Shown here piece after piece: positions 33,955 through 50,325 of a stretch of 64,000 nucleotides of DNA. Under the pieces are notes generated by a model, which was not told where the DNA came from, did no database searches, and worked only from the letters and a program-made list of their open reading frames with translations. The stretch comes from Planctomycetota bacterium (GTDB lineage: Bacteria; Planctomycetota; Planctomycetia; Pirellulales; Pirellulaceae): assembly GCA_016872775.1 (NCBI GenBank), contig VGZA01000016.1:1-64000 (forward strand). The letters run 5' to 3'. The stretch's first letter is position 1, and the number at the start of each line of letters is the position of its first letter. The position numbers were made by a program, and so were the translations under genes.

Positions 33955-36900
33955 TCACTTGCCAACGACGATCGTCCTCACGAGTTGGCCGGTGTTTCCG
34001 TTCCAGAGGAGCAGTGATCCGTCGGCCGTGCCCGCGACGAGCAGTTCCAGGTTGGGCGTGATGTCGACGGCGTGAATCCAGGCGTTCGCGCCGCTGAAGT
34101 TGCGGATATTGCCACCATTCGACGCAACGTGCATGCGCACCAGCCGATCGCCACAACTGGAAACGACATTATCGGAATCCCCGATAAATCGGACACCCGT
34201 GGCATGTTTGCCGAAGTTCGGGATGGTGACGCGCTGGTCGGCGGTTTCCGCGTCCCAGACCTTGAGCAGGTTGTCGGCGCCGGCAGACACCAGGGTCTGG
34301 CTGTCGCTCTTCCAGGCCACACTCATCACATAATTCGTGTGCCCCTCAAAACGGCGAAGCGGTTGCGCAGTGGCAGCATCAAAAGTTCGAACATACTTGT
34401 CGGCGCTTGCGGACGCGATCCGTTTGCCATCGGGGGAAAATCGGGCCGCATGCACGACGTCGTCGTGCGCTTGCGGGATCGACTGTACTCGGCTTCCATC
34501 GGCCACGTTAAAGACGTGGAGTTCGCCGTTACGGGAGGGCACACCGCTGCCAACGAGCAAGCGGGTTGAATCGGCGCTGAAGTCGACCGTCATCACGCGA
34601 TGCGAAATCAGGTCAGGCTTATCGATCGCGCCGACCGTTTTTTCCAGTTTCCAGGCAGGGTGCAGTTCCCAGACAACCGCGCTCTGATCGGTGGATACGG
34701 TGATCAGTTCGGAGGAACCGAGAAACCCGATCGCGCTCAGGGCCGCCTTGTGGCCGGCAAAGGCGGCGACGGCGATGCCGGTTTCCGCATCCCACAAGTG
34801 GGCGCTGGCGAAGTCGCCAGCGGACGCCAGGAAGCGTCCGTCGGCGGAGAAGGACAATGCGCGAACGGCCTGATCGGCTTCGTTGACCGAAGTGGTGGCG
34901 GCCTCGACGAGCTTTTTCAATTCCGCCAGGTTGGCTTCCGCTTGGGTTACCGCGGCACGCGCCACCGGCAGCCGGGCGTTCGCCTGTTCCAACTCCTTGG
35001 TGGCGATTCCGCTTTGCTGCATGGCGAGGCGCTGGGCGGCCTGCGAAGTGCGCACGGCGGCCAGCGCATCGTTGTACGGTTTCTGCGTGGTGGTTACTTT
35101 CTGAGCAGCCTCATTCGCCTGGTTGGCCATGGTCTGGGCGGCTTGCGTCGATGTCTGCACAGCGGTTTGCGCTGCCTGCAGCTTCTGTTGCGTCACCACC
35201 ACCAGTTGCGCTGCCTCGGCGGCGGCTTGCTTCAGAACGGCGTCGTTCGGCGCGGCGTTCGACGCGGTGGTGCGAAGGGCCGCCTTCTGCTGGGCGACCT
35301 GCAACTCCGCGTCCATGTCTTTCATCATCTGTTCGCTCGTCGATTTGGCAAGCTGCGCTTTGCGAGCCTCCGCGGAAGCGGCAATCGACACCTTTTCCGC
35401 CGCCAGCTTCTGATCCGCGGCCTGCGTGAGTGCCGTTTGCTTCTGCTGCAAATCGGTGTTAGCAGCCGTCAGGGCAGCCGTCGCCTTCTGGGCCGCGTCA
35501 GTTTTTGTTGGCACATCCTTTTCCGCGATATCGGCCTGCTGTTTCTGATAGTTCAATCGTTCATTGGCCGCCGCCTGCTGCTGGGTCAATCGAGCCAGCG
35601 AGTTCTTGCGGCGCATGTCGCCCCGCATCTCCACCAACTGCTGACCATTGACGTTCCAGAGTTTAATCGTGTGATTGTCGCTGGCACTGGCCAGCCGCTG
35701 CGCATCGCTCCGCACGGCAACCGCCGTTACCGGTCCGCCGTGCCCAAATTGAGCGATCGGCTGTCCGTTTTCGAGATTCCAGCGCCGGATCGTCGTGTCG
35801 GTGCTGCCTGAAAATACCTGGAGCGGAGAACCTGGAAACGCGGCCAGTCCGTTCACCGGCCCTGTATGGCCGGGGATCAACCTTGCGGCGCGCACCGAGG
35901 CGTACCAGATCCCGTCTGGCGCCAGTGAAACTACGACGTCACGCTCCGGCAACCAGGAAACCCACGAAACGGGTTGAACCTGGTGCGTGAAGCGTTGCAG
36001 GAGTTGGCCCGTCGCCACGTCCAACACCGCTTGAAACGGCTTGGCTCCAGCCACACTAATCAGTACCCGAGTATTGTCCGGGGAATAGGCGGCACTCAAC
36101 ACCGGCCCCGCGAGATTGGCGACCTGTTGTACGCCCAGACCGCCGCCGTTGACCTGCCAGAAGCGAACCGTGCCGTTTTCCGCTCCCGAGACGATCGCCT
36201 GCTCGTTCGCGGACAATCGAAAGGACGTCAGCGGCGCGCCGTGATTGGTTGTAAACGTCGCTTGCGCATTCTCCGTGTTGAAGCCACGAATCGATCCGTC
36301 ACGCGCGGCACAGAGCAGGTTCTGGCTGCCGCTCTGGAATTGCAATCCGACAATCGCCTGCTGATTTCCATCAAGGTGCCGCGCGAATACCAACGCCCGA
36401 TTCCAGGTTCTCCCCGCGCCGTCCGACCAGATCAGGCGGTCGGGTTGAGCGTCCCAGGCGATGAAGCTGCTAGGGAGATCCTCCAGCGATTCCTGGATCC
36501 GCGATTTTTCGATCTCCCAAACGATCGTCTCGGAAGACATATTGACCGCGGCACTGGACGCCAGCCGCTTGCCGTCGAACGAGAAATTCAACGACACAAC
36601 CGGACCTTGGTGCCCAGTCAACGTCTGTTGAATCTGGCCATTCGCGAGCAGCACGATTCGAATCAACTTGTCTTCCGACGCGACCGCGAGTCGTTGTGCG
36701 TCCGCCGACAAGCTCCAGCTGACGGTCGGCGACGGCAGCTCAATCGCTCTCACCTGCTGCCCGTCCGCGGGATTCCAGAAGCGTATCGTGCGGTCGGCCG
36801 AAATGGAGTACGGTTGGCCGGCAGCGATATATCCTGCCCCCAAAATCCGCCCCGCATGGCCCATACACTCTTTCTGCAACATTCCGTCGGCCATATTCCA

Positions 36901-38910
36901 GAGTCGGACTTTGTTGTCCGCTCCCGCCGCAACGACCTGTGCATAATCGGGGCTCAAAGCCACGGCGGTGAGCGGACTGCCGGCAGGTCCGAATTTCTTC
37001 GATTCCGGCGGCTGCGGGTTGTTCAACTCGAAGACGCGAACGGTCTGATCGTCACTGGCGGTCACCAGACGCTGGCCGTCGGGCGAGAATGCGACGGCGC
37101 GCACCGGGGCGTCGTGCCCCAACAGCGTGTGCATCAGCTGTCCGTTATCCAGGTTGCGAATCAATACGCCATGGCGCCCGCCGACGGTCCCCGCCACCGC
37201 GGCAATGCGCCGCTGAGGGTGCCAGGCACTCGTGATCACACCGCTGATCGCGTTCGGCTCGCACAACACTTTCGCCGGTTCGCCGAACAGATTCTTCCAG
37301 GTTGAAATCTCGCCTTTGTCACCGCCCGATGCAACCAGCTTCCCGTCGGCGGAAACGGCCAGAACGGTCACCGGATTCAATGACCCTCGCCAGCGCCGCA
37401 ACAAAGTCTGCTCCGGAATCTTCTGGACGCTCAGCATGCCATCCACCGAAGCGGTAAACAGCAAGGGTGGTTCGGTGGCCGATCCGCCGACCAGTTCCAG
37501 CGCTACTGGTGCCCCTTTGTCGAGCTTCCAGTCGGCAACCGTCGCCCACGCCGTCCGCCCGTTGTCCGCGGGGTTGCCGGCCGCGGCACCGGCCGCGTTG
37601 CCGGCGGCATTCGCAGCGCGCAACAGCCGTACCGTTCCCGTCGTATCCGCGACTGCAGCCCAGCTGCGATCGCGGCTGAGGGCCAACGACCGCGCATTGG
37701 CAATTCCATGCGTCCATTTTTCCGGAGCCGCGTCCGGGATCGCCCAGGTCCGAATCTGGTTGTCGGCACCGCCAGTGACCACGATCGGTGGTTGCCGTGG
37801 ATTTGCGGCCGGCGGCGAGACCTCGACGATTTCCAGAGCATTCAACGGCGAAGGAGATTCGATAAGACCGACGAGTGCTCCGTCCGCCACGCGCCAGCGA
37901 CGCAGCGTTTGATCGACGGATACCGAAAACAGGGTCGCGTTTTGCTCATCGAACTTGAGTCCCGTGACACGGTCGGTGTGTCCCGTAAGTGTCGCGGCGG
38001 GCTGGGACGTCTTCGAGTTCCAGACGCGAATCGTATTGTTCGGCCCCGAAGTCGCGATCCACTCGAGATTCGGACTCACGGCCAGCGCGGTGACCGGGCC
38101 CCCCACCGCCAATTGGGTTCGCTGCACGTCGCGCGGCCGGCGCCAGATCTTGGCTTCGCGGAAGCTGCCCGAGGCGAGCAGGTCACCCTCGACATTGAAC
38201 GCCAGCGATTCGACGAGGTCGCGGTGCGCAACTGGCTCGACGGCCGAGGGATCGTTGGACGCCAGGGCCGGGTCGCCCAGTTCGGCGACCCGCTGCCCGC
38301 TTGGTCCATGGTAGAGATAAAGACGATTACCACGGCTGGCGGCGACATATTGGCCATCGGATGTTACCGCTACGGTCAGGACCGGCGCGAACGACCGAGC
38401 GATCGCCTGCATCTGCCTTGGGGAGAGATTGGCGACACCGCCCGTGCCCTTCGCGCCTTGATCAATCCAGAGACGAATCAATCCCAGTTCTTCCGAACTG
38501 AGCGGTGGAGCGTTGACTTTGTTGCCGACCGGAGGCATGACCGGTTCGCCGGTATGGGAAGCGAGATTCAACAGCAGGCTTTGCGCGCCGTTTCCGGCGA
38601 CGATCGCCGGTCCGGAATCTCCGCCTTTTTTCATCGTGTCGGGCGATTCCAGGCTCAGCTCGCCATTCCGCTGGCTGGCGCTGTGGCAAGCCAGACAACT
38701 GCGCTGCAGAATCGGCAGGATGTCGCGCTCAAATACGACAGGTTCGGCGCGCTGTACCGCGGCGATCGGAATCGGCGCCGCCGGCGCATCGGGTGTGCCC
38801 AGCAGCAGCACGACGTGGACAATGAGGAGTATCAAAAAGCGACCGCATGTGGTTCCGCTGCTAAAGCGGGAGTGGATATTGCGGCTGTCTGTTGAGACCT
38901 TCACAGGCAT
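33955..38910 (-). CDS. Giant exported cytochrome c/WD40 protein with internal coiled coil
   Basis: A 1651-residue protein. A signal peptide (FLILLIVHVVLLLGTPDAPA) is followed by a planctomycete cytochrome c (PSCyt1) domain with Cys72, Cys75 and His76 in SCLACHSAS. WD40 repeats fill about residues 150-1095 (for example RVWNSKT, RRWRVAD, RLWNMAD, RFWNPAD, RRWNLEN, KLWNVNG). A long Ala/Gln-rich coiled coil spans about 1099-1350. Six or more further WD40 units follow to the C-terminus (HLWDAET, VVWELHP, KVWDAET, LLWNGNT). The coil shares the motifs PNDAxLK and QQKLQAAQ with the next gene upstream. It is the last gene of the four-gene operon. The role is unknown; a scaffold with electron-transfer capacity is inference. 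Confidence 0.9.
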   Translation of the reverse strand: MPVKVSTDSRNIHSRFSSGTTCGRFLILLIVHVVLLLGTPDAPAAPIPIAAVQRAEPVVFERDILPILQRSCLACHSASQRNGELSLESPDTMKKGGDSGPAIVAGNGAQSLLLNLASHTGEPVMPPVGNKVNAPPLSSEELGLIRLWIDQGAKGTGGVANLSPRQMQAIARSFAPVLTVAVTSDGQYVAASRGNRLYLYHGPSGQRVAELGDPALASNDPSAVEPVAHRDLVESLAFNVEGDLLASGSFREAKIWRRPRDVQRTQLAVGGPVTALAVSPNLEWIATSGPNNTIRVWNSKTSQPAATLTGHTDRVTGLKFDEQNATLFSVSVDQTLRRWRVADGALVGLIESPSPLNALEIVEVSPPAANPRQPPIVVTGGADNQIRTWAIPDAAPEKWTHGIANARSLALSRDRSWAAVADTTGTVRLLRAANAAGNAAGAAAGNPADNGRTAWATVADWKLDKGAPVALELVGGSATEPPLLFTASVDGMLSVQKIPEQTLLRRWRGSLNPVTVLAVSADGKLVASGGDKGEISTWKNLFGEPAKVLCEPNAISGVITSAWHPQRRIAAVAGTVGGRHGVLIRNLDNGQLMHTLLGHDAPVRAVAFSPDGQRLVTASDDQTVRVFELNNPQPPESKKFGPAGSPLTAVALSPDYAQVVAAGADNKVRLWNMADGMLQKECMGHAGRILGAGYIAAGQPYSISADRTIRFWNPADGQQVRAIELPSPTVSWSLSADAQRLAVASEDKLIRIVLLANGQIQQTLTGHQGPVVSLNFSFDGKRLASSAAVNMSSETIVWEIEKSRIQESLEDLPSSFIAWDAQPDRLIWSDGAGRTWNRALVFARHLDGNQQAIVGLQFQSGSQNLLCAARDGSIRGFNTENAQATFTTNHGAPLTSFRLSANEQAIVSGAENGTVRFWQVNGGGLGVQQVANLAGPVLSAAYSPDNTRVLISVAGAKPFQAVLDVATGQLLQRFTHQVQPVSWVSWLPERDVVVSLAPDGIWYASVRAARLIPGHTGPVNGLAAFPGSPLQVFSGSTDTTIRRWNLENGQPIAQFGHGGPVTAVAVRSDAQRLASASDNHTIKLWNVNGQQLVEMRGDMRRKNSLARLTQQQAAANERLNYQKQQADIAEKDVPTKTDAAQKATAALTAANTDLQQKQTALTQAADQKLAAEKVSIAASAEARKAQLAKSTSEQMMKDMDAELQVAQQKAALRTTASNAAPNDAVLKQAAAEAAQLVVVTQQKLQAAQTAVQTSTQAAQTMANQANEAAQKVTTTQKPYNDALAAVRTSQAAQRLAMQQSGIATKELEQANARLPVARAAVTQAEANLAELKKLVEAATTSVNEADQAVRALSFSADGRFLASAGDFASAHLWDAETGIAVAAFAGHKAALSAIGFLGSSELITVSTDQSAVVWELHPAWKLEKTVGAIDKPDLISHRVMTVDFSADSTRLLVGSGVPSRNGELHVFNVADGSRVQSIPQAHDDVVHAARFSPDGKRIASASADKYVRTFDAATAQPLRRFEGHTNYVMSVAWKSDSQTLVSAGADNLLKVWDAETADQRVTIPNFGKHATGVRFIGDSDNVVSSCGDRLVRMHVASNGGNIRNFSGANAWIHAVDITPNLELLVAGTADGSLLLWNGNTGQLVRTIVVGK

Positions 38911-38950
38911 GTCTCCGTTACTTCGTTCCGAACGTCAACTTGACCCCTGC

Positions 38951-41900
38951 CTACTTGGCGGCCGGTTCCACCTTCTCCACAGTCAGTGCGACCGTTTGAT
39001 CCAAGGTTAAACCTTGCCCGTTGAAGTTTATCGTCATGCGCACGATGACGTTATGGACGCCGGGCGTCGCGTTGGGTTGCGCCATCACGACCAGCTTGCC
39101 GTCCGCCTGATTAGCCGGCAGCGACACATTTGCGGCTTGCAGTCCGGCGACACCAGGCGGGAGCACCAATTGCGTGGTGACCTCAGCGGCAAACCCGTAG
39201 AGTCGCTCGACGCGAAACGGCAGATCGAGCATCGCACCTTGTTTGACGGTCAGTTTGTCGGGCGTGCCGCTGGCCTTTACCGGATACTCGGCGATCTTGA
39301 TGGTCAGCGGGGTCGACGGAAAATTAACGTTGTAACCGCGCATCGCCGATTGCTGCTGGAGTTGCTGTGCGCGTTGATCGGCACGTTGCTTTTCCTGTTG
39401 GGCGAGTTGCGTCAGTGCCTGGGCGTCCTGCTGATCCTTATCCGCCTTCTGTTTTGCTTCCTGCGCGAGTTTTTGTTTCGTGGTCGCTTCCGTCAATTTG
39501 GTATCGGCGACTTTGGCGGCGTCGGCGGCGGCCGTTGCCTTCTTGGTGGCCTCGGCGACTTCCTTCTGCTGGGCAACGACTTTCTCCTTCAACGCCGCGT
39601 CGTTCGGAGTGGCGGCCGACAGCTTCGTCGCCGCGGCCAGCGCTTCCATCGCCGCTTTTTGAGCAGTCGCCGTTGTGGCGGCAAGCTGGTCGGCCGTGGT
39701 TTTAGCTTGAGTGGCCGTCGCCATTTCGTTCGTCGACGTGGTCAGCGCCGTAGCCGCCTGCTGGGCTGCCTGTTGGGCCGCCTGCAGTTTCTGCTGCGTC
39801 TCAGTGACCGCCTTGGCGAGCTGATCCTGGCGCTCCTTGGCTTTCGCGGCCGACTCGGGATTGCGGCTGTAATTCACGCCTTGCGCCGACCCCGCCAGAT
39901 AAAACGTGTACGTTCCCGGCGGGGTGTTCGCCTGCAGCCGCAATTCGAAATCCCCCGCATTGTTGGTACCGATCGGGACCTGCGGCAATCCGATATTCGG
40001 CGGCAGTCCGATCGGGAATCCGGTGAGTGTTCCCGCCGCGCCGTCTTGTCGAGTCACCGTGTAGGGGATTTTCAAGACACCACCGCGCGCCGTCTCGATC
40101 ACTTTTCCATCTCCCAGAGTGACTTGCAGTCGCGCAATTTCATCGGCGGAAACGCTGACCGGAATAAAATCGACCAGCCGCGACCGCGTACTGGGGATTT
40201 CGCCAAAAGGCTGGGCGAATTGCAAAGCGTCGAGCGACATGCCGGCGCGCGCTACGCGGACCAGCTCTTTGCCCGCGACGGTCGACTTGCCCGTGATTTG
40301 CAATGCGCCGGTTCCCACCGCCGCCCCAGCATCCGCCGTGAGAATCAGGCTGGTGAAGTTGGCGGCCTGTCCGAGAGTTACTTCCGGTGCCGTGACGCCG
40401 GCCGGTAAACCGGCAGCGCTGATCGTGATCGGTCCGTCGAACCCGTCGCGCCGCGCCGCGATAACGCGAACAACCTCACGTCCTCCTTTGCGCATCAGGA
40501 TGGCGCCCGACACGTCCATAGGTACCGCAACGAGCCGAAAATCGGGCTCGGGCTTGCGAATCGACAGCCGATAGACCAGACACGGCTCGTTGTACAGCTG
40601 ACTGTATCCCTCCCGTACCAGAATGCGATAGGTTCCGTCCGCAGGCGCCGTGAAGCGATAGGCCGGATCGTAGCTGCGCTGGTCGAATTCGCGGCCGCCG
40701 TATCGCTGATCGACGTCATCGACGGTCGCCACGACCGTCACTTGTTCCTTTCCGTCCTCCTCGCGCGCGACGCGTTGAATGACCAGGGTCGGATCGGTGG
40801 GTAGCCCCAGGCGGTGGGACCAGACTTCGATCCAGTAAACGTCACCGGCCTTGGCGTCGAACGAATACCAGTCGTTGTCACGTTGAGGATAGAACTGACC
40901 AGCGACTTCGACAGGCGGCACCAGTTTCTGCGCCGTCTGCGGCGAGTTATTCTCTTGTTCCAAGACCACGGCTGCGGTCGCGGCGGTGACCAACACAGGA
41001 TTGGATGGCCCCTGAGGACCGGCGACTCGGTACTCGACGCCATCCAAAGCGAACTGGTAAGCGTCGAGGCGTTCGCTGAACGCCATACGCCCCAGAATAT
41101 CTCCCGGAATCGCGATGCGGACTTTCAATTGCTCCAGAGGGCGACCGCCGGATGAAAGTCCGGAAGGCTGACCGCCCGGAAGATTCAGTCCATAGACCGT
41201 GTACTCCTCATTCGATCCGGGCAATCCGGCGGGCGGAAAGACAAACGCGACGATCGGCCCGGCACCGACGGCGATCCGATAAGGATATTCGTTGCCGCCG
41301 CCATGAAACAACTCGCGAACCCGCAGCCGGTAGACACCCGCGGTCGGCAATGACGTCTCGATAAATGGATCCTTCGACCATCCAGGCTGGCTCGCGGCAA
41401 CGATCCGTCCATCGGGCGCGAAGAGCACCATCTGCAGATCGGCGCGCGAATCAATACGTCGTCCAAAGCCGTCAATCGTCAATCGCTGACCGGCTTGTCC
41501 CGCGAACTGGTACCAGTCCTGGTCCGCGCCGTTGGCAAACTGACCGTCGATCGTCACGGGAAGCTGGACTTCCTGCGCCTCCGCCCGATCGTTGTTCGGC
41601 TCTTTCTCCAAGGCGGTCGGCCAGGCGTGCACGATGAAGGTGCGAGGGTTCGACAAGCCATAGCGTCCCAGCGCCCGGACCGTATGGTGGCCGACGGGAA
41701 CATCCGGTTTGACCGATACCACAAACCGATTCTCCACCGGTTGCTTTCCCTGGTCAAACGGGCCGGGGTCAACCATCTTGCGGCTGGCGGCGATGCCTGG
41801 ATGGGAAAATTGCAATTGAACGACGTCATCCAGGTCAATTCCGAAAATCGTCAGCTCCAGTTCCGTTCCGGGAGCGGCTCCCGCCGGAAAAACCGCGTCG

Positions 41901-42004
41901 AGCCTCGTTGCGGGCAACTGGGCCAATCCGGCCCTAGGCCCGACGGCACCACCGACGATCAGCAGGGCTGCCCAAGCGATCCTTCGACCGTTCGAATTCA
42001 TCAT
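38951..42004 (-). CDS. Exported PPC-domain protein with C-terminal coiled coil
   Basis: A 1017-residue protein with a signal peptide (AALLIVGGAVGPRAGLAQ). The first part matches the 24.1-26.2 kb PPC protein: an Ig/IPT-like domain (LDAVFPAGAAPGTELELTIFG), a PPC sandwich near residues 140-235 (QDWYQFAGQAGQRLTIDGFG), a second near 365-480 (DNDWYSFDAKAGDVYWIEVW), and further Ig-like domains. An Ala/Gln/Lys-rich coiled coil occupies about 713-886 (QQKLQAAQQAAQQ, PNDAALKEKVVAQQ), followed by a final beta domain. AAGGAA precedes ATG 42004. The gene is the third of the operon, 60 bases after the DUF1549/DUF1553 gene and 40 before the cytochrome/WD40 gene. The coil is absent from the paralogue. Confidence 0.88.
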   Translation of the reverse strand: MMNSNGRRIAWAALLIVGGAVGPRAGLAQLPATRLDAVFPAGAAPGTELELTIFGIDLDDVVQLQFSHPGIAASRKMVDPGPFDQGKQPVENRFVVSVKPDVPVGHHTVRALGRYGLSNPRTFIVHAWPTALEKEPNNDRAEAQEVQLPVTIDGQFANGADQDWYQFAGQAGQRLTIDGFGRRIDSRADLQMVLFAPDGRIVAASQPGWSKDPFIETSLPTAGVYRLRVRELFHGGGNEYPYRIAVGAGPIVAFVFPPAGLPGSNEEYTVYGLNLPGGQPSGLSSGGRPLEQLKVRIAIPGDILGRMAFSERLDAYQFALDGVEYRVAGPQGPSNPVLVTAATAAVVLEQENNSPQTAQKLVPPVEVAGQFYPQRDNDWYSFDAKAGDVYWIEVWSHRLGLPTDPTLVIQRVAREEDGKEQVTVVATVDDVDQRYGGREFDQRSYDPAYRFTAPADGTYRILVREGYSQLYNEPCLVYRLSIRKPEPDFRLVAVPMDVSGAILMRKGGREVVRVIAARRDGFDGPITISAAGLPAGVTAPEVTLGQAANFTSLILTADAGAAVGTGALQITGKSTVAGKELVRVARAGMSLDALQFAQPFGEIPSTRSRLVDFIPVSVSADEIARLQVTLGDGKVIETARGGVLKIPYTVTRQDGAAGTLTGFPIGLPPNIGLPQVPIGTNNAGDFELRLQANTPPGTYTFYLAGSAQGVNYSRNPESAAKAKERQDQLAKAVTETQQKLQAAQQAAQQAATALTTSTNEMATATQAKTTADQLAATTATAQKAAMEALAAATKLSAATPNDAALKEKVVAQQKEVAEATKKATAAADAAKVADTKLTEATTKQKLAQEAKQKADKDQQDAQALTQLAQQEKQRADQRAQQLQQQSAMRGYNVNFPSTPLTIKIAEYPVKASGTPDKLTVKQGAMLDLPFRVERLYGFAAEVTTQLVLPPGVAGLQAANVSLPANQADGKLVVMAQPNATPGVHNVIVRMTINFNGQGLTLDQTVALTVEKVEPAAK

Positions 42005-42064
42005 GATCTTTTCCTTCCGTCACCTTGCCCCGGTTGATCGTCGGGTGCATTCACGCGGGCGCCG

Positions 42065-44569
42065 TTACCAGACAAACTGAAATTCCTTGGCGTTCAGAAT
42101 TGCCCAGAGCACATCTTCCCAGGCCTGTTGCTTGTTGGCAGCCTGGCTCAGATGCGTCCTCACCAGTTCCATCTCCGCGGCCGTGGGACGTCGAGCAAAA
42201 GCGCGGAGATAGAGTTCATCGACCAATTCGTCGATCGATCGTTTCTCCGCGCGTACGAATTGTGCTGCGAGTCCATTCCCGTTCTGTAGCCGTCCCTGAA
42301 CTTCCTGGGAATTGAGCAGGTGCAGAGATTGCGCGAGATTGGCTTCCGGATTGCGTTCGCATTCGCAGGCGCTCGATGCCTCCGGCTTTCCAAACACCGT
42401 CAGGAAATAGTTGTTAAAGCCGTTGTCGGGCAATTGCACGGCGGTCGTGCCCTGGGGCACGCCTCCGAAAGTCGCTGGCGTCGACAGCAGGCTGTTAATG
42501 GCGTCGTAGAAAACTTCCGCCGTCAGTCGCCGCGGATAGAAACTGGAAAAATTCTGGCGATCCAGCTTGTTCTCTTCCGTCGGTTCGGAACTCAGCTGAT
42601 ACGTCGATGACTTGCAGATCGTGCGTACCAGGTCTTTCATGTCGAAACGGCGTTCGAGAAAGTGACGAGTGATTGCGTCGAGCAATTCCGGGTTGGACGG
42701 CGGATTCGTGACCCGCAGGTCGTCCTCGGGGCTCACAATCCCCTGCCCCAGAAAGTGCTTCCAGTAGCGATTGACGAGTGCCCGCGCAAAGAACGGGTTG
42801 TCCGATGCCACCATCCAGTCGACGAGGTGCTGCCGGGCGTCCTCCCAGTTCGGCACGTTCAATGGCGAACCGCCGAGGGGCGTGGGTGGAACCGGTTTGC
42901 CGGTGCGGGGATTGGTCGCGGCGGGCGCTGTATCGCGGACGAAAACCATATCGGGCAGCCTCTGGTTCGGATCCGGATTGAATCGACTGTTCTTCAGCCC
43001 GACCTGGGTGAAGAAAGCCTCGAATCCGTAATAGTCCTGCTGGCTCCAGCGCTCGAACGGATGATGATGGCATTTGGCACACGCCAGGCGCATTCCCAGG
43101 AACAACTGGGCGGTGTCCTCCATCTGCAGTGACGAGGTGGTAACCTCCTTGTACCAGGCGACGGGCGGGTGCGACTCGGCGTCACCGGTCGCCGTCAGCA
43201 CGCTGCGAACAAACTGGTCGTATGGCAGGTTGCGATCCAGTGCGTTGCGGATCCAGCTGTGGAAGCGATAGGTGTAAACGTTGTCGTTGCCGTTGCGGCG
43301 TTTGTTACGCAGGACCGCGGCCCACTTGTTGGCGAAGTAATCGGCGTAGCCGGGACTATCGACCAGCCGATCGACCAGCCGATCCCGCTTCTGCGGGTCC
43401 TTGTCGTCGAGGAACGCCCGGGCTTCTTCGTAGGTCGGCAGGCTCCCGGTAATATCCAGTGTGACGCGCCGCAGGAACATCGCGTCGTCGCTCATAAGGG
43501 AGGGCGGAATTCCAAGTTGCCGCAATCGCTTCATCACCAGCTGGTCGATGAAGTTCTTTTCCGGCGGCGTTGCCGCGACGGGTAGTCCCTGGGGAATCAC
43601 CGCGCGGAACACGGCGACCTGTCCCTGGAAGCGAATCATGATTGCGGCATCGCCGGGCGTCTTGGCGACGGTGATGCGTCCCGAATTATCGGCAGCGGCC
43701 AGTTCGATCTGATTCGATTCAAACGATGCCAGTCGCGTGACATCGCGTGTGGAGCCGTCGCTGTAATGCCCGACGACGGAAAGCTGCTGGCGACCGTCGA
43801 AGTTCATCGCGCGCATTTCCGGTACCACCTGGATACGCTCGATGACCGGGTCCGACTCGCTGCCGTACGGCATTCCCTGCCGGATCCAACGCGCCAGCAG
43901 TTCCCATTCATACGAGCCGACCGTCATGCGGCGACCACCGCCGTGCGGCAGTTGGTTGGAGGGCTTGGCGAGCAAGAGACTGAATTCGGGATCTGCCGGA
44001 AAAACCCGCCGACCACGACTTTCATGGACCAGAAAGTCGTAATCCTCGTTGGGATAGAAGCCCAGCAGTGAGAGCTTGAACCCGTTCTGCCCATCCGACT
44101 TTCCGTGACAGCCACCGGCATTGCAGCCCAGTCGGGTAAAGATGGGGACCACTTCATTGACAAAATTGACGGGCAGATCCTCTCCGCACTTTTCAATCTT
44201 GAGCGACATCGTTGCGGTGCGACCGTCACTGGTGCGCGCCGTGACAACGGCGTCGCCGTCGCCCAGCGGCGTGGCGAGCCCCTCGGCCGAAACGGTCAGC
44301 AGGTTCGATTTGTCGACCGCATAGGAGACTTCGTGAGTCAGGTCGTGGCGTTGCCCGCTGGAATAGATGCCGGTGACAAGCAGTTGCCTCCGGGCATTAC
44401 GCCCTACCAGTACCGAGACGCCTCCGGGCTCGAATTCAACCGCGGTCAAACTGCCCCTCGGGCCAAGTCCGGGCCGATCGATTGCCAAGAGTTCCGCCGC
44501 AGCGGCGGTAAGCGACAAAACGGCACCCAAGGTCCCGAGGCGTAATACCGACAAACCGTTTGTTTTCAT
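42065..44569 (-). CDS. DUF1549/DUF1553 planctomycete cytochrome-type protein with bacterial Ig-like domains
   Basis: This 834-residue exported protein is a paralogue of the 26.2-28.6 kb gene. After a signal peptide (LGTLGAVLSLTAAAAELLA) it has a Big2-type Ig-like domain near residues 38-125 (LLVTGIYSSGQRHDLTHEV). The haem-like region holds Cys149, Cys154 and His155 in GCNAGGCHGK (CX4CH). A second Ig-like domain follows (LSVVGHYSDGSTRDVTRLA), then DUF1549 with the canonical CAKCHHHPFERW, and DUF1553 (PFFARALVNRYWKHF). The start at 44569 is set by AAGGAG at 44577-44582; the frame is open to 44632 but without that site. It lies 63 bases after the giant WD40 gene in the same operon. Confidence 0.92.
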   Translation of the reverse strand: MKTNGLSVLRLGTLGAVLSLTAAAAELLAIDRPGLGPRGSLTAVEFEPGGVSVLVGRNARRQLLVTGIYSSGQRHDLTHEVSYAVDKSNLLTVSAEGLATPLGDGDAVVTARTSDGRTATMSLKIEKCGEDLPVNFVNEVVPIFTRLGCNAGGCHGKSDGQNGFKLSLLGFYPNEDYDFLVHESRGRRVFPADPEFSLLLAKPSNQLPHGGGRRMTVGSYEWELLARWIRQGMPYGSESDPVIERIQVVPEMRAMNFDGRQQLSVVGHYSDGSTRDVTRLASFESNQIELAAADNSGRITVAKTPGDAAIMIRFQGQVAVFRAVIPQGLPVAATPPEKNFIDQLVMKRLRQLGIPPSLMSDDAMFLRRVTLDITGSLPTYEEARAFLDDKDPQKRDRLVDRLVDSPGYADYFANKWAAVLRNKRRNGNDNVYTYRFHSWIRNALDRNLPYDQFVRSVLTATGDAESHPPVAWYKEVTTSSLQMEDTAQLFLGMRLACAKCHHHPFERWSQQDYYGFEAFFTQVGLKNSRFNPDPNQRLPDMVFVRDTAPAATNPRTGKPVPPTPLGGSPLNVPNWEDARQHLVDWMVASDNPFFARALVNRYWKHFLGQGIVSPEDDLRVTNPPSNPELLDAITRHFLERRFDMKDLVRTICKSSTYQLSSEPTEENKLDRQNFSSFYPRRLTAEVFYDAINSLLSTPATFGGVPQGTTAVQLPDNGFNNYFLTVFGKPEASSACECERNPEANLAQSLHLLNSQEVQGRLQNGNGLAAQFVRAEKRSIDELVDELYLRAFARRPTAAEMELVRTHLSQAANKQQAWEDVLWAILNAKEFQFVW

Positions 44570-44632
44570 TCCGCGACTCCTTGCAAGGGACTGCCGAGCG
44601 ATCGGGCAATCCCGAATTTCAACTGCTGTCAT

Positions 44633-47600
44633 CTACCGTGCCGTTCCGGGCAATTCCACAACGCGCGCCATGCCATCTCCGTTCGCCAACACGACGCGCG
44701 CATCATCCGACTGGTAATAGGCGGTATTGCCGACGCGTCCGACACGCTCGGCAAACAGTGGTTTTCCATCCGCCAGGTTCCAGACTTTAAGGTTACCGGC
44801 GTAGCCGTACGACAGCAAACGAGTTCCGGTCGCATTGAAGCTCACGCAATGCACGAAGTCGTTGTGTCCTTCGAGAACCCGCTCCTCGGCGCCGCTGAGG
44901 ATATTCAGCAGGTGGATCTTGCGATCCGCGCCACCGACCGCCACGCTCTGGCCGTTAGGATGGACGGCGACCGCATACATCGTCTCGTCGAACGTGGCCA
45001 GCTGTTTGAGTTGCCGGCCGCCCGTAACATCCCACAATCGGATCGTGCGATCTCCCGCCGCCGACACCACCATCGATTCGTCTGGGGTGAAGGCGATCGC
45101 ATGCACGGCGGCGGTATGGCCCGTCAACTGGGCTCGCTGTTGGCCGGTCCGAACATCAAAAATGCGCAGCGTCTGATCCGTGCTTCCGGAGACGATCGTG
45201 TTACCGTCGCGACTCACGGCAACCGCGTAGACGGGTCCACCGTGGTCGAACCGGCGCACAAATGAGAGAGCAGCATACGCCCAGGAATTAACCTGGCCGT
45301 TCGGGTGAACGCTCCAGAGATTACGTCCGTCCTTGTCGAATCCGATTCGCGTGAACGGATGATCGTATTCGGTGCGCTGGTGGGGGATCAACTCGTTGCC
45401 GGGCTGCGGATTCTGCGGTGGCAGGGGTGGTCCGAAAAAGTACAGTGCCGAAACAGGCGGCCCTGCGGGCGCGGCGGCCGTAGCGGGCGAGGCAGGTGCG
45501 GCCGCGTCGCCGGTGGAGGGACCTACCGCGGTGGCGGCGGCGAGTCGCGTGCCGTCGGCGGTCCAGGCCAGTGCCTGGACCGGCGCGTCTGTTTTCATCG
45601 TCTGCAACAACTCGCCGTTGCCCACATTCCAGATCCGCAACTGGCCGTCCCCGTAGCCCACGGCAACCCGCTGGCTATCCGGGCGCATCGCCAGCGCGCG
45701 CGCGTCGTTGAGCCCCTCGCCCAGCGTATAACGGATCGTCACCTTGCGGACGATCTGCCCATCTGCCAGGAGATTGACCAGCGTCGCCTGACCGTCCGCG
45801 GTCAGCGTCGCCAATTGCGTGCCGCCGTTGTAAGCAATGACGTCCAGAAGTTCCTTGTCCGACATGCGGATGGTGCTGAGCGCGGCGAGCTTGCCGAACC
45901 GGATCGACTTGTCGGCGGACGCGGAAATGAGCGTGAGATTATCGCTGTGCCATCGCGCGGAAAGCGGGCCGGCTGCGTGGCCGACAAAAGACTGCAGCGG
46001 CTGATCGGCGAGGAAGTCCCAAGCGTCGACACGGCCATCGTCGCCGGCAATCGCCAACTTTTGTCCGTCGGCGGACAACGAGATGCTCAGCGGCACGGAT
46101 GGACGCACCATCGCACGGGATTGCTTGCCGTCCGCAAGGTTCCAGACGCGGACCGACTTGTCGCGCGAACAGCTGATCAGCGTCTGGCCATTGCCGGTCA
46201 CCAGCAGTTCGTGAATCTGATCGGTATGCCCGTCGAGGCTCCGTTCCAATTGCCCGTCGGCGAGTCGCACCTGCGCGATCCGCCCCTGGACCGTGCCGAT
46301 GAACGCGCGGGCGCCGTCCGCTGTCGCTGCGACCGCCGTGGCGGATGGAGCACCGCTTTCGCCCACACGCAGTAAGGCGCGATTCGCCAGCAGTCCCTGC
46401 GGCGCAGCGCCGAATGCTACGACCTGCCGCCCCTCCGCGCCGGTGACAATCCCGCGACTGACCATCGACGCGAAAGGAATCTCCTCGTTCACGCGGAACG
46501 GCTCCAAACCGAAAGCGCGCACGCGTTGCTGCGCGTCGCAAACCCAAACTTCCGTTCCGTCGCGCCCGAAAACCGCACTGCTGATTTGAGGCCCGAATGC
46601 GAACGGTCCGCGCATCGCTCCGTCGGCCAGCGACCAGACCACCGTATTGCCATCGGCGGCGGCAGCCAGTAATCGGCTACCGTCACGCTGGACGGCGAGT
46701 TGCTTGATGGGGCCGGCGGGCGAGGCCAACGGCGCGAGCCGCGTGCCATCGGCCTTCCAGCGTGAGATTGCCGGATTGCGCTGCGTGATGCCGACGACTG
46801 CGGCTTCGCCGGCTGTGGCATGTAATTGGAGAATCGGATCCGGTGTAGCATCGGTCGACACTTCGCCGACAAAGGAAAGCGCCGGCGTCCAGGTGCGCAG
46901 GCCCGCGTCCGCGCCACCGCTGACAATCGATCGGCCGCCGGCCCATGCCAGACACCGTTGCGGTTGAGCCTGCGTCATCCGTTCCGCGGCTTTTCCCGTC
47001 CGCAAGTCCCAGGTCGTCACAAAGCCGTCGTCCCCACAGGTGGCAAGTCGGGGTTCGCTGTTGCTGATCGCCAACCCGCGCGGGAGGGCGGTATGTAGCA
47101 GCTTCCATTTCGGCGCCACGTCCCCCCCGGCGCCGAGCATCGTGGCACTTTCCCAGACCGAAACAGTCTTGTCCTCACTGGCCGACGCAAAAAACTGACC
47201 GTCGGGACTGAAGCCAATATCGGTGATTTTGGCGGTACCCGCGGTGAGCGACCGAACCGGAGCGGTCTGTCCGATCCGGCCGTCGGCGATCGGCCAAAGC
47301 CGGATCAGTTTGCCCGAGCCGCTCGCCGCCAGCCATTTCCCATCGGCGGAAACCGCAAGGGCGACCGTGTCCGGGTCGGGCGCCGCGACCGCCTGATCCA
47401 CGGCGAGCGAATGCAGCGCCGACCGACCATCGCCGCGGCAAACCACGATCGAGCGACCATTGGCGTTCCAGACCGCGCCCTGAAGTGTCGTGGGGGCCTC
47501 ATCGATTTTCTCCAGCAGCCGGCCATCCAGCACCTGATAAACACGGATGCCGTCGCCGGCAGCAACCACGAATTTCTGTATGTCGCCGGAAAAGCTGGCT

Positions 47601-50233
47601 GCCGTCAGGTCGCTCGCCGCCGCCGGCACGCTCCATGGGTTGGCGCCGTCTGCCACATTCCAAAGCTTCACCACCCGATCCGCGCCGGCGGACAACAGCC
47701 GCGTACCGTCCGGACTTGCGTCCAACGTACGAACGGCTGCGCCGTGGGCCATCGCCCGCGTTGCGGCGCCGCTCGTCAGATCCCAAACGCGCACCGTCCC
47801 GTCATCCGCCGCGGAAAATCCCAAGGCACCCCGTACGACAAACGAGCGAACGATCCCTGTGTGGCCGGCGAGTTGGCGTGTTTCCTTCCCGTCGGCAACG
47901 GTCCACTGCCGAATCGGATTCTCGCTGGCACTGGTCCAGGCGACACTGGCATCGTCGGACAGTCCTACCGCCAGCACCGCGGCGGTATGCCCTTCGAGCT
48001 TCTTCAACTCGGCGCCCCCCGCTTCGAGATTCCAAACTCGCGCCGTCTTATCGGCCGAGCCAGTGATGACTCGAGTTCCAGCCCGATTGAATGCGATCGC
48101 CGACACCGCAGCCTCATGGCCACCAAGTGTCGCCAAGGTCTGCCCCGAATCGCGATCGCGTATCCAGACCACCGGCTTGCCCGCGGCAGTCCCCGCGATC
48201 GCCATGCGCTTGCCGTCCAGGGAACTCGCCGCCACCAGGTACGGAGCAGCGTCATTTGCCAGTTCCTTCACCGGTTCGATCAGGCTCCAGATGCGAACCG
48301 CCTGATCCTGCGAAATCGTCGCGATCCGTTTTCCATCCGGCAGGAAGGCCAGATCGTGGATCGCACCGGGTAAGGCCATGCGGCGCATGCGAATCACCCC
48401 GTCCGCGAGATTCCAGACCATGATCGGACCGGTTTCGCCTGCCGCCGCGACCAACGTGTTGTCGGGGCTGATGGCGACCGCTGTCACAGGTCCGAGCAGA
48501 TTCGTTTCCGGCAGCGCTCGCACCTGCTGACCGGTCGTCTGATCCCAGACACGCACCGTTTGATCCTGCGAGCCGGTAACGCTCCAGCGACCGTCGCTGG
48601 AAACGGCAATCGCGCGAATCGGCTGCGAATGGCCACTCGATAGTCGCGGCGGAACCAGGGGCAACTGCCAGCGCTTGATCGTCCCGTCCGCGCCAGCGGT
48701 CCAGAAGCAGGGTTGCGCTCGATCGTAGTCCATCGCCGTCACGGCGCCCGTATGAGCGAAGACCGACCCTTGAACAGCACCATCGGCCCCGTTCCAGAAC
48801 CAGACAACTCCGTCGGCATCGCCGCTGCAAAGCTGCTGATCGTCCGGACGAATCGCCAGTGCCGTGATCCCCTGCTGATGCTGCCCCATGTTCCGAACCG
48901 GCTGGCCTTGCGGGTTCCAAATCCGTACCGTCTTGTCGTCGCCAGCCGTCGCGAACCATTGCCCGCTCGCCGCGGAAACCGCTGCCCGAACCGGCATGCT
49001 ATGACCATTGACCGGCACGACTGGCGTCGGCAGCACCCACGTGCGATAGGTTCCGTCCTGTCCCGCCGTCAGCAGCTTCTGGTTGTCGGCGAGAATTGTC
49101 AGATCGCGAATCGGTCCGGTGTGGCCGGCCAGGGTGCCTCGATCAGCGCCGTCGGCAAAATTGAGCATGCGTACTCGGCCCACTTCGTCGGCCACCGCAA
49201 TTACTCCGCCGTTCGGAGCGATCGCCAACGCACTTGTCGCCTGCTCCTGCTTGGGAAACTCTCGCGCGATTTGGCCCGTGTTGCCATCGACCAGACGCAA
49301 CGACTTGTCCTCGGTGGCGACCACCGACATCAGTTGTCCCGGCACAAGCAGCTGGTCGCGGATCGGTGCGCCCACCACAATCTCTCGCGCGCCGACCGGC
49401 GGCAATTGCCAGATACGAAGGGTCCCATCGACGCCGGCCGACAGCAGGTTCTGGTTGTTGGGGTGAAAGAGCAACGCATCGATTCCGCCGGCATGCTGGC
49501 CCAGCGAGCCGACGGGCGTATCCAAAAACGGACTCCAAAGCAGAATCTGACCCTGGGTATCCGCCGTCGCGAACTGCGTCCCGTCGGCACGGTAGGCGAC
49601 CGCCCGAACCTCCGCCAGATGTCCGGCCCGGTTCGACGCCGTCGAACGGTCAAGCGGCGCGGGCTTGTCGCCCATCGCCGCAAGTTGCATCTGCAATCGA
49701 TTGCCGTCCCAGAGTCGAACCGCTTTGTCGACGCCACCCGTCACCAGAAATCGACCGTCCGGACTGAATACCAGCACCCCCGCGACCCCGTCGTGAGCGC
49801 CCAGTCGCAACGTCGGTACCGCCTGGGGAATATCCCAAACCCGCACCGTATTGTCCTGAGCGCCACTGACCAGCGTCCGACCGTCCTCGCTCAACGCCAG
49901 GCAATACACCGGTCCGGTGTGTCCGAGATATTGCCTCCGTTCGACCCCAGTCCGGGCATCCCAAAGCCGTAACGTCTCGTCGGCACTGCCAGTGACAACC
50001 TCGAGGCCCTTGCGCGTGAACCGAGCCATCAACACGTCTGAAAAATGACCGCGCAAGACGAGCGGCGATTGGGGCGTAAACGCCTGGCCGGCGACCGTCG
50101 AGGTCCTGCCGATTGCAACCGCCGCCAGCAGCAGAGCAAGCAGCGTCGGCAATCGTGACAACCGGCCCCCCACCAATCGACCGTCGCAGAATTCGGTTCG
50201 TCGCTCCGGTTCGAACCCACTTCGCTGTGGCAT
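44633..50233 (-). CDS. Giant exported WD40-repeat protein (1866 residues)
   Basis: After a basic leader and a signal peptide (LPTLLALLLAAVAIGRTSTVAGQ) the protein is WD40 repeat almost throughout. At least 30 terminal strands of the RLWD, RVWN, KLWN or MVWN type can be counted, enough for four or more seven-bladed propellers. A Pro/Ala-rich linker near residues 1545-1585 (AAAPAGPPVS, PLPPQNPQPG) separates the last propeller. GAGGAG lies five bases before ATG 50233 and a TATAAT promoter lies about 70 bases upstream. It is the first gene of the operon. WD40 propellers mediate protein contacts, so an extracytoplasmic scaffold for the downstream cytochrome proteins is plausible but unproven. Confidence 0.9.
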   Translation of the reverse strand: MPQRSGFEPERRTEFCDGRLVGGRLSRLPTLLALLLAAVAIGRTSTVAGQAFTPQSPLVLRGHFSDVLMARFTRKGLEVVTGSADETLRLWDARTGVERRQYLGHTGPVYCLALSEDGRTLVSGAQDNTVRVWDIPQAVPTLRLGAHDGVAGVLVFSPDGRFLVTGGVDKAVRLWDGNRLQMQLAAMGDKPAPLDRSTASNRAGHLAEVRAVAYRADGTQFATADTQGQILLWSPFLDTPVGSLGQHAGGIDALLFHPNNQNLLSAGVDGTLRIWQLPPVGAREIVVGAPIRDQLLVPGQLMSVVATEDKSLRLVDGNTGQIAREFPKQEQATSALAIAPNGGVIAVADEVGRVRMLNFADGADRGTLAGHTGPIRDLTILADNQKLLTAGQDGTYRTWVLPTPVVPVNGHSMPVRAAVSAASGQWFATAGDDKTVRIWNPQGQPVRNMGQHQQGITALAIRPDDQQLCSGDADGVVWFWNGADGAVQGSVFAHTGAVTAMDYDRAQPCFWTAGADGTIKRWQLPLVPPRLSSGHSQPIRAIAVSSDGRWSVTGSQDQTVRVWDQTTGQQVRALPETNLLGPVTAVAISPDNTLVAAAGETGPIMVWNLADGVIRMRRMALPGAIHDLAFLPDGKRIATISQDQAVRIWSLIEPVKELANDAAPYLVAASSLDGKRMAIAGTAAGKPVVWIRDRDSGQTLATLGGHEAAVSAIAFNRAGTRVITGSADKTARVWNLEAGGAELKKLEGHTAAVLAVGLSDDASVAWTSASENPIRQWTVADGKETRQLAGHTGIVRSFVVRGALGFSAADDGTVRVWDLTSGAATRAMAHGAAVRTLDASPDGTRLLSAGADRVVKLWNVADGANPWSVPAAASDLTAASFSGDIQKFVVAAGDGIRVYQVLDGRLLEKIDEAPTTLQGAVWNANGRSIVVCRGDGRSALHSLAVDQAVAAPDPDTVALAVSADGKWLAASGSGKLIRLWPIADGRIGQTAPVRSLTAGTAKITDIGFSPDGQFFASASEDKTVSVWESATMLGAGGDVAPKWKLLHTALPRGLAISNSEPRLATCGDDGFVTTWDLRTGKAAERMTQAQPQRCLAWAGGRSIVSGGADAGLRTWTPALSFVGEVSTDATPDPILQLHATAGEAAVVGITQRNPAISRWKADGTRLAPLASPAGPIKQLAVQRDGSRLLAAAADGNTVVWSLADGAMRGPFAFGPQISSAVFGRDGTEVWVCDAQQRVRAFGLEPFRVNEEIPFASMVSRGIVTGAEGRQVVAFGAAPQGLLANRALLRVGESGAPSATAVAATADGARAFIGTVQGRIAQVRLADGQLERSLDGHTDQIHELLVTGNGQTLISCSRDKSVRVWNLADGKQSRAMVRPSVPLSISLSADGQKLAIAGDDGRVDAWDFLADQPLQSFVGHAAGPLSARWHSDNLTLISASADKSIRFGKLAALSTIRMSDKELLDVIAYNGGTQLATLTADGQATLVNLLADGQIVRKVTIRYTLGEGLNDARALAMRPDSQRVAVGYGDGQLRIWNVGNGELLQTMKTDAPVQALAWTADGTRLAAATAVGPSTGDAAAPASPATAAAPAGPPVSALYFFGPPLPPQNPQPGNELIPHQRTEYDHPFTRIGFDKDGRNLWSVHPNGQVNSWAYAALSFVRRFDHGGPVYAVAVSRDGNTIVSGSTDQTLRIFDVRTGQQRAQLTGHTAAVHAIAFTPDESMVVSAAGDRTIRLWDVTGGRQLKQLATFDETMYAVAVHPNGQSVAVGGADRKIHLLNILSGAEERVLEGHNDFVHCVSFNATGTRLLSYGYAGNLKVWNLADGKPLFAERVGRVGNTAYYQSDDARVVLANGDGMARVVELPGTAR

Positions 50234-50297: not shown

Positions 50298-50325
50298 ATT
50301 ATATCAATCCTTGTGGATATGTCGA
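50298..50325 (-). promoter_or_regulatory. Predicted sigma-70 promoter of the WD40/cytochrome operon
   Basis: Read on the minus strand, TCGACA (50325-50320, five of six matches to TTGACA) is followed by a 16-base spacer and a perfect TATAAT (50303-50298). Transcription would begin near 50291, just ahead of palindrome copy 2, and reach GAGGAG and ATG 50233. It is the only TATAAT I noticed outside a gene in the window. Confidence 0.6.

Follow-up and report, generated by a model that had tools for sequence, protein, structure and literature searches.

What do four adjoining genes for exported WD40, DUF1549/DUF1553, PPC and cytochrome-WD40 proteins encode, and has a WD40 protein taken the place of DUF1501 among them? 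The genes lie in the window, the whole 64,000-nucleotide stretch of DNA that was analysed (Table 1). DUF1501 belongs to the alkaline-phosphatase-like superfamily, and the initial annotation had proposed a large extracytoplasmic redox assembly in which a WD40 scaffold replaces it. The assembly is a reasonable inference, but the replacement turned out to be mostly wrong. On balance we favour a five-part extracytoplasmic haem-bearing assembly, with four of its genes in cis and that for DUF1501 in trans.

Table 1. Features of the four-gene operon and their positions in the window
Feature	Position	Strand	Basis
Four co-directional genes	33955-50233	-	ORFs, Pfam
Promoter-like site, TCGACA-16-TATAAT	50298..50325	-	11/12 matches, TG before second hexamer
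Gene 1, exported WD40 protein without haem motif, 1866 aa, 33 or more blades recognised	44633..50233	-	ORF, Pfam, blade count
Gene 2, DUF1549/DUF1553 protein, two Big_2-type domains, two haem motifs, 834 aa	42065..44569	-	
First Big_2-type Ig domain of gene 2, residues 38-130	44180..44458	-	
Cryptic PSCyt1-like cytochrome c domain of gene 2, residues 130-240	43850..44182	-	hhalign
Second Big_2-type Ig domain of gene 2, residues 241-327	43589..43849	-	
DUF1549 (PSCyt2) domain of gene 2, CxxCH at residues 497-501	43001..43549	-	
DUF1553 (PSD1) domain of gene 2, invariant CxC (C735, C737)	42152..42835	-	
Gene 3, PPC protein, 1017 aa, without haem motif	38951..42004	-	ORF, Pfam
Ala-rich helical (coiled-coil-like) insert of gene 3, residues 710-894	39323..39877	-	composition rule
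Gene 4, PSCyt1 cytochrome and WD40 protein, 1651 aa, 23 or more blades recognised	33955..38910	-	
PSCyt1 domain of gene 4, CxxCH at residues 72-76, Met125 of MPP	38530..38697	-	
Ala-rich helical insert of gene 4, residues 1090-1359, between WD40 blades	34834..35643	-	composition rule

The ORFs were called by a simple script, and Pfam searches identified WD40 repeats in the products of genes 1 and 4, for which the blade counts are lower bounds, and a PPC domain in that of gene 3 (56 bits). Genes 2 and 3 are separated by 60 bases and genes 3 and 4 by 40, while the gap between genes 1 and 2 is 63 bases if gene 2 starts at the in-frame ATG at 44569, and 0 if it starts at the first ATG at 44632 (855 aa). 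The promoter-like site lies about 65 bases upstream of the first ORF; three such sites were observed in the region against a shuffled expectation of 3.0, so that only its position and quality speak for it. By eye, all four products have predicted N-terminal hydrophobic segments of the export type and none has a lipobox. A motif scan of the four proteins found one CxxCH and one CX4CH in gene 2, one CxxCH in gene 4, and none in the products of genes 1 and 3, three haem motifs in total. No DUF1501 gene lies inside or adjoining the four genes, the nearest being that of a sister operon (22639-28553), from which they are separated by a kinase gene and, as judged by eye, an aminotransferase-like ORF, both on the opposite strand. 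In these respects the initial annotation was sound: the gene order, the three gaps, the composition of the sister operon, the absence of DUF1501, the four export-type segments and the two products with haem motifs all stand, with the CX4CH motif of gene 2 added here. In the sister operon, too, a DUF1549/DUF1553 gene is followed by a PPC gene of the same family, and the DUF1549 protein there also has CX4CH and CxxCH, but the third place is taken by DUF1501, whereas the four-gene operon has the cytochrome-WD40 gene there and its DUF1501 is unlinked.

The product of gene 2 exceeds the curated cut-offs of both PSCyt2 (DUF1549, PF07583; 168 bits), which contains the CxxCH, and PSD1 (DUF1553, PF07587; 152 bits), and also matches Big_2. 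The haem region in its N-terminal part had no Pfam match at E<=10 and falls outside PSCyt1 (PF07635), while hhalign aligned it with PSCyt1 at a probability of 98.9%, and later of 99.3% with controls at no more than 1.9%; it is therefore regarded as a divergent PSCyt1 relative. The CX4CH (residues 149-155) occurs in all 104 aligned rows and His209 in 99% of them. The domain is predicted to combine CX4CH with a His in place of the Met, and its haem is probably His/His-ligated, which brings the predicted haem sites of the operon products to three. Gene 4 is a member of PSCyt1 proper, with an N-terminal PF07635 match of 53.4 bits (cut-off 22), CxxCH and the distal Met of MPP. Met125 is present in 98% of 63 rows; CxxCH is conserved in these rows by construction, since it defines the class.

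The PPC and cytochrome-WD40 proteins each contain a long helical insert, detected by a composition rule rather than a coiled-coil predictor. Such inserts were found in all 58 cytochrome-WD40 partners and in 51 of the 58 PPC partners. Their lengths do not correlate between the two proteins (rho 0.06, n=58), so that pairing judged by length was rejected. Inserts of the same operon were more alike than those of permuted partners (0/5000 permutations), but this test is confounded by composition and relatedness, a clear case being the genome's own paralogous locus C43 (L050), and the insert of the own partner ranks at median 16 among 51 only. A turn motif is present in 11/52 PPC and 10/52 cytochrome-WD40 inserts, against means of 2.1 and 3.3 and maxima of 8 and 10, respectively, in 200 shuffles, which makes a shared motif suggestive for the PPC inserts only. 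The inserts are not unique to these two families, since 4/12 DUF1549 paralogues without CX4CH in the same genome have one; three of the four other cytochrome-WD40 proteins of the genome lack it, as does the sister-operon PPC protein (701 aa).

We infer the assembly, an electron path within it and an action of DUF1501 in trans, as follows. The DUF1549/DUF1553 protein would be the redox centre, with the CX4CH haem in its cryptic domain and the CxxCH haem in DUF1549, and would exchange electrons, in one direction or the other, with the PSCyt1 haem, of the His/Met type, in the cytochrome-WD40 protein. The long helical inserts may hold the latter and the PPC protein together, the propellers would serve as scaffold, to which the extra WD40 protein would have been added in one clade, and DUF1501 would be a movable partner, working in trans in the window's lineage. 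A bolder formulation, still tentative and more doubtful than probable, is that of a new extracytoplasmic redox machine, in which a di-haem DUF1549/DUF1553 protein is clamped by the insert pair to a propeller-borne mono-haem cytochrome and served by a dedicated hydrolase-like DUF1501 partner, its parts scattering yet co-occurring across genomes. Our favoured guess at the role of the assembly is oxidative processing of polymers outside the cytoplasm.

The same proteins could instead form a scaffold at the cell surface or an adhesin-like assembly, with haems that serve a structural or sensory role and do not carry electrons. Ig-like, PPC, WD40 and helical segments make up most of the mass, and the model of the whole gene 2 protein matched mainly Ig structures, the best PDB matches of its Ig domains being adhesins, S-layer and phage proteins. 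Quinohaemoprotein amine dehydrogenase, which has a di-haem subunit fold, a propeller subunit of its own and a cross-linked quinone subunit, matched (1jmx) in an Ig domain only, across 85 residues at Z 8.9, a score that unrelated Ig proteins share. The DUF1549/DUF1553 core, modelled alone with pLDDT 92.6 and pTM 0.92, had no Foldseek match at E<=0.001 (the best, at 0.11, was a phycobilisome protein) and reached Z of at most 5.5 in structure comparison, with phycobilisome linker domains as the best of the weak matches. A known enzyme fold was rejected for the core on account of these weak matches, which do not show a new fold either. However, Ig folds say little about function, and the near-invariant ligands CX4CH, His209 and Met125 are as expected of redox haems, so an assembly of this kind appears possible but rather unlikely. 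At the C-terminus of DUF1553 a match to DUF1800 (PF08811) of 19.5 bits, below the cut-off of 26.1, and several more weak matches in related genomes recall the DUF1800-DUF1501 gene pairs that occur in other bacteria; as profile-profile comparison gave only 27% probability over 41 columns, kinship of DUF1553 with DUF1800 is unproven.

Genes 2 and 4 match the PSCyt families far above the cut-offs, and nothing is known of the functions of PSCyt architectures according to the text of PMC5615132 available to us, which lists WD40 and Big_2 among the partners of PSCyt genes. The operon differs from PSCyt proteins in the fusion of PSCyt1 to WD40 repeats with an inserted helical segment and in the cryptic CX4CH cytochrome domain of its DUF1549 protein, and the three-gene set with an upstream WD40 gene is not among the PSCyt genes described in the accessible part of that paper. 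The available portion of PMC5587647 reports that DUF1501 is often a neighbour of WD40 genes in planctomycetes, and no description of this operon was recognised in the literature searched, including the accessible text of PMC5615132, PMC5587647, PMC8567305 and PMC2754498. The porin-multihaem conduits of Verrucomicrobia, in the account that we could consult in PMC5615132, resemble the operon in having exported c-type cytochromes beyond the cytoplasm, but carry eight haem motifs in one protein, as opposed to three over two proteins, and no porin occurs among the best Pfam families listed for the four products. For an electron conduit, three haem sites in proteins that total about 5,400 residues are sparse.

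A PSCyt-type system that processes polysaccharides oxidatively, with DUF1501 as the hydrolase, would fit with the carbohydrate-binding modules carried with PSCyt genes and the sulfatases near them, as the available part of PMC5615132 describes, and with the co-occurrence of DUF1501 and the WD-type operon (see below). Sulfatase-like ORFs, scored by a sequence motif, were found in 3/100 neighbourhoods with unassigned ORFs but in only 2/64 core loci, and no carbohydrate-binding module is present among the Pfam hits listed (the best 25 families for the WD40 proteins). Unlikely as we consider it in this specific form, the polysaccharide reading narrows, rather than opposes, that of the five-part assembly.

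Gene order is conserved well beyond the window. Among 115 non-redundant loci, in which classes were assigned from phmmer hits to the window proteins and gene runs were allowed gaps of 600 bases (L030, 3.8 kb, lay outside the annotated loci), 64 loci from Planctomycetota and Verrucomicrobiota contain DUF1549, PPC and cytochrome-WD40 in the same order; 33 of the remaining 51 are cut by contig ends, and in several uncut loci DUF1549 occurs without the other two. The window has this core cassette, defined here as DUF1549, PPC with insert and PSCyt1-WD40, on one strand and in this order. A phylum-wide PPC search, with a strict threshold and at most four candidates scored per genome, gave at least 16/199, and the window's genome has 95 DUF1549 places and at least 127 DUF1501 places. 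Clustering was applied to the unassigned ORFs of all 115 loci, and the 22 widest clusters were inspected; the widest of these, present in 10, 7 and 6 loci, were named by eye and include an ABC-type ATPase and an HtrA-like protease, and their ORFs lie at varied distances and look unrelated.

The two giant WD40 proteins of the initial annotation are both present but are not equivalent: one is the common cytochrome-WD40 subunit and the other a clade-specific extra. Among the loci examined, WD40 at the gene 1 position is confined to one clade, and on a DUF1549 tree of 111 rows it requires 3 changes against 14.3 in shuffles. It was seen in 15 of the 20 rows of this clade, six of which had entered the first trees because they had WD40; those trees held core loci and the six so chosen, the 111-row tree every usable locus, and all were quick searches. 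The genes at this place change fast, as indicated by a wide range of sizes and by identical 407-aa copies in L055, located in a duplicated segment that includes 1,300 bases of exact identity, and this would fit with mere co-transcription without physical contact, the extra WD40 being a recently expanded repeat protein untied to cytochromes. Yet the three core genes remain linked in both phyla, and the upstream WD40 persists in most of its clade. The clade also holds L089, L090, L098 and L105, where the DUF1549 gene stands apart, with neither PPC nor WD40 neighbours. All four of these genomes keep, elsewhere, DUF1501 orthologues (74-76%) and long-type cytochrome-WD40 proteins (41-46%, one a fragment), and three keep WD-type PPC (45-51%), in one case interrupted by an in-frame stop, none being found in G258; this genome and that of L097 are drafts of untold completeness. 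Retention of the parts where the operon is dispersed goes beyond co-transcription alone, which we regard as decidedly unlikely to be the whole explanation.

DUF1501 is found in 18 of the 64 core runs and is absent from 46: 41 have neither it nor upstream WD40, 15 have DUF1501 only, 5 WD40 only and 3 both; in Verrucomicrobiota up to five DUF1501 genes lie in the run alongside the cytochrome-WD40 gene. Within the clade its position varies, namely between WD40 and DUF1549 (L056, L057), upstream (L061), downstream (L052, L055), convergently downstream (L051, L230) or upstream on the opposite strand (L095). The WD-type operon at L052/L093 is that of a laboratory planctomycete, strain SV_7m_r. The DUF1501 proteins of L051, L052, L055, L056, L057, L061 and L095 group together (SH-aLRT 98) in trees of which the second left out eight rows, seven on long branches or joined to such. 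The window's operon has no DUF1501 within it, but its genome retains the clade orthologue as an unlinked gene at C33, 79-80% identical to the linked DUF1501 of G008. Orthologues were detected in 9/9 and 7/8 clade genomes searched, that is, besides the window's genome, in 15/16. WD-type DUF1549 (>=1100 bits) and DUF1501 (>=70% identity) select the same nine of 60 genomes, with thresholds set after seeing the data, 28 and 16 candidates per genome scored and kinship ignored; ranked by bit score, the two lists share nine of their top ten genomes, the DUF1501 of G040 (698.7) exceeding that of G035 (692.4). Thus, DUF1501 left the operon but not the genome, and, as WD40 abuts DUF1549 where L056 and L057 have DUF1501 between them, its operon place was vacated in the window's lineage. 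That a WD40 protein took the place of DUF1501 in a DUF1501-free complex, as the absence of the gene in or beside the window operon, five loci with upstream WD40 and no DUF1501 in the same-strand run (L051, L053, L054, L092, L097) and the draft genome of L097 (G263; operon present, no orthologue at E<=1e-120) might suggest, is very improbable in view of the joint presence of both genes in L052, L055, L057 and the cut locus L056, the convergent DUF1501 next door in the genomes of L051 and L053, the core loci with neither gene and the orthologues kept across the clade.

The favoured five-part reading thus names one coherent set: three core genes, one clade-specific WD40 gene and one movable DUF1501 gene. 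It also specifies predicted ligands for three haem sites and proposes that the two helical inserts pair, which can be tested, and the genomes in which the operon is dispersed with most parts kept are a natural test of functional linkage. The locus counsels caution in inferring the loss of a subunit from a single operon, as DUF1501 had moved, not vanished.

The operon lies within contig 16 of a genome of 5.85 Mb (141 contigs, 99.9% estimated completeness). ORF calls on the window reproduced the four genes and intergenic gaps of the initial annotation, and Pfam confirmed its WD40, DUF1549, DUF1553 and PPC domains and found PSCyt1 at the N-terminus of the fourth product, the cytochrome-WD40 protein. 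The signal sequences, judged by eye, predict export of the products. The tandem array located upstream (table) is possibly a variable tract beside the promoter.

For comparison, 40 neighbourhoods of PPC matches were fetched from 60 related genomes, 39 of which were annotated, and named genomes were scanned with a DUF1549 alignment, the best 80 of 546 loci being kept. Removal of four duplicates left 115 loci from Planctomycetota and Verrucomicrobiota; L052 and L093 (L numbers denote neighbourhoods, G numbers genomes), both from Planctomycetes bacterium SV_7m_r, are one stretch. The genes for DUF1549, PPC and a CxxCH-bearing WD40 protein occur in this order in a single run in 64 of the 115 loci. 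Among the 51 others, contig ends truncate 33, and 18 are intact. Since the loci were gathered via PPC and DUF1549 searches, these counts represent the rate at which the partner genes occur with PPC and DUF1549, not cassette abundance. The operon is real and conserved. The window's genome encodes a second, plainer copy without the extra WD40 gene on contig 43 (L050), along with other DUF1549 loci that combine PPC, DUF1501 and cytochrome-WD40 in different ways. At one of these (L175, contig 34), DUF1501, PPC, DUF1549 and cytochrome-WD40 are all on one strand in a different order, and a helical segment of 414 residues is present in the cytochrome-WD40 protein.

Coordinates of individual features in the window, in other contigs and in compared loci
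Feature	Location	Description
DUF1501 orthologue of the window's genome	contig 33, 26106-27428	unlinked to operon
Sister operon	window, 22639-28553	DUF1549/DUF1553, PPC without insert, DUF1501
DUF1553 C-terminus	window, 42152-42835	sub-threshold matches to PSD2, DUF1800 and DUF4214
CGTTCCC tandem array	window, 50384-50479	7-base unit, 13.7 copies, 97% matches; between promoter-like site of operon and divergent SelA-like gene
WD40 gene pair	L055, 12778-18488	two identical 407-aa genes, 4,487 bases apart, in a duplication that includes 1,300 exactly matching bases in one stretch
Repeat-like gene	L105, 12427-19275; L098, 1959-3419	up to 2282 aa; replaces PPC after DUF1549
Di-haem cytochrome c peroxidase look-alike	L109, 5121-6302	start of the sequence judged by eye, with CxxCH; located after a DUF1549 gene without PPC and cytochrome-WD40 neighbours

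The extra WD40 gene marks a single lineage. In a 71-row DUF1549 tree, the 15 WD40-bearing rows require two changes versus a shuffled mean of 13.8, and in a 111-row tree of every usable locus three versus 14.3. In the latter they fall inside a 20-row clade (SH-aLRT 100), named members of which include Rhodopirellula and Rubripirellula MAGs. This clade also contains L061, where DUF1501 lies upstream and WD40 downstream, as well as four DUF1549 genes (L089, L090, L098 and L105) that have neither PPC nor WD40 next to them. The WD40 pair of L055 either arose very recently by expansion at the site of the upstream WD40 gene or is an artefact of assembly.

The proposal that a WD40 scaffold replaces the DUF1501 subunit was not borne out. 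Among the 64 core loci, 41 have neither gene in the run, 15 DUF1501 only, five the upstream WD40 only and three both, and the window's genome retains a DUF1501 orthologue on contig 33. This gene adjoins pyruvate-carboxylase-, GrpE- and DnaJ-like genes (named by eye) and is separated by about 4 kb from another DUF1549/DUF1501 pair on the same strand; the interval contains two genes, one of which has the opposite orientation. It is 79-80% identical to the G008 copy; the next own copy shows 63-66%, and further own copies 43% or less among the matches listed. The position of DUF1501 varies within the clade: it separates WD40 from DUF1549 in L056 and L057, lies upstream in L061 and downstream in the same orientation in L052 and L055, is convergent downstream in L051 and in G016 (L230), and in L095 is upstream but on the opposite strand. 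The DUF1501 proteins of all these loci except L230 form a single group (SH-aLRT 98); once those of G016, G017 and the window's genome are included, all ten rows fall on one side of a branch (SH-aLRT 89). The DUF1501 of the sister operon is placed far from this group, on a long branch.

WD-type DUF1549 proteins (1100 bits or more) are encoded by nine of 60 relatives, and the identical nine encode DUF1501 at an identity of at least 70%, with at most 28 and 16 candidates scored per genome. The chance of such agreement would be 7e-11 for 60 genomes or 8e-9 for the 37 of the same family, with both thresholds set after the data were seen and relatedness uncontrolled; ranked by bit score instead, G040 stands above G035. 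Close relatives of the PPC protein are present in G040, G046 and G058 (DUF1501 at 65-69%). In five of the nine genomes (G019, G021, G026, G035 and G036) DUF1501 is on the same strand in or beside the operon, in two (G008, G016) it is convergent, in the window's genome it is on another contig, and the short contigs of G017 do not reveal its linkage. Seven of eight further clade genomes have an orthologue (74-76%), which in G262 (L092) is likewise on a contig other than the operon's; a search of G263 (L097) at E<=1e-120 found none.

In L089, L090 and L105 the DUF1549 gene has other genes on either side, while L098 is cut upstream and shares its downstream neighbour with L105. The corresponding genomes, G256-G259, all encode DUF1501 orthologues (74-76%). 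Three have a long-type cytochrome-WD40 protein (41-44%), and G258 a 46% fragment; three have a WD-type PPC protein (45-51%; in-frame stop in G256), and G258 only a 34% paralogue. Each retained part is on its own contig number. Parts that are scattered yet retained are expected of a functional, not merely transcriptional, set. The DUF1549 proteins of L105 and L098, followed by the repeat-like gene, are close relatives of the window's, other parts being encoded elsewhere.

The cytochrome-WD40 protein contains CxxCH at residues 72-76 and Met125 (98% conservation over 63 rows). Two motifs are found in the DUF1549 protein: CX4CH at 149-155 and, within the DUF1549 domain, CxxCH at 497-501. Residues 130-240 of this protein matched no Pfam family; profile alignment to the PSCyt1 domain of the cytochrome-WD40 protein gave probabilities of 98.9% and 99.3%, versus 1.9% or less for controls (six column-shuffled, one reversed, two unrelated). 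Across 104 rows, Cys149, Cys154 and His155 are invariant and His209 is present in 99%. Because the MPP methionine has no counterpart in the alignment and His209, within PHGGG, falls three residues beyond that position, a His/His-ligated haem is predicted.

Helical inserts, identified by a composition rule as segments of 60 residues or more, occur at the compared loci in all 58 cytochrome-WD40 proteins and in 51 of their 58 PPC partners, versus 0/111 DUF1549, 0/67 DUF1501 and 2/17 haem-free WD40 proteins. A further 18 DUF1549 neighbourhoods from the window's genome show them in 0/9 PPC and 1/4 cytochrome-WD40 proteins, and in DUF1549 proteins in 0/12 with CX4CH and 4/12 without it. The insert thus marks the cassette, though it is not unique to it. 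The insert lengths of PPC and cytochrome-WD40 proteins show no correlation (rho 0.06). Inserts from the same operon are more similar to each other than permuted pairs are (0 of 5000 permutations), yet the own partner ranks at median 16 among 51. The L050 pair can be aligned well about a shared turn. These data support, but do not prove, pairing of the inserts.

The whole DUF1549 protein was modelled with pLDDT 78.9, and its two Ig domains match Big_2 structures well. The DUF1549/DUF1553 core modelled alone (pLDDT 92.6, pTM 0.92) matched no PDB chain at E<=0.001; its best VIA-align hit, a phycobilisome linker domain, has Z 5.5 over 65 residues, and sequence profiles point weakly in the same direction. 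The sub-threshold matches of the DUF1553 C-terminus (table) hint that DUF1501 partner families may share a helical module.

Published context (PMC5615132) favours polymer breakdown, but the Pfam families listed for the four proteins include no carbohydrate-binding module, and sulfatase-like ORFs are near only 2 of the 64 core loci. This kind of gene set is known, though uncharacterised, and the window's operon is a variant of it specific to one clade. Given exported, haem-bearing, propeller-rich products and helical inserts in two neighbouring subunits, the best explanation is that the four products would form one extracytoplasmic assembly, in which electrons may pass between the DUF1549 haems and the PSCyt1 haem, and DUF1501 would be a partner, encoded in trans in the window's genome.
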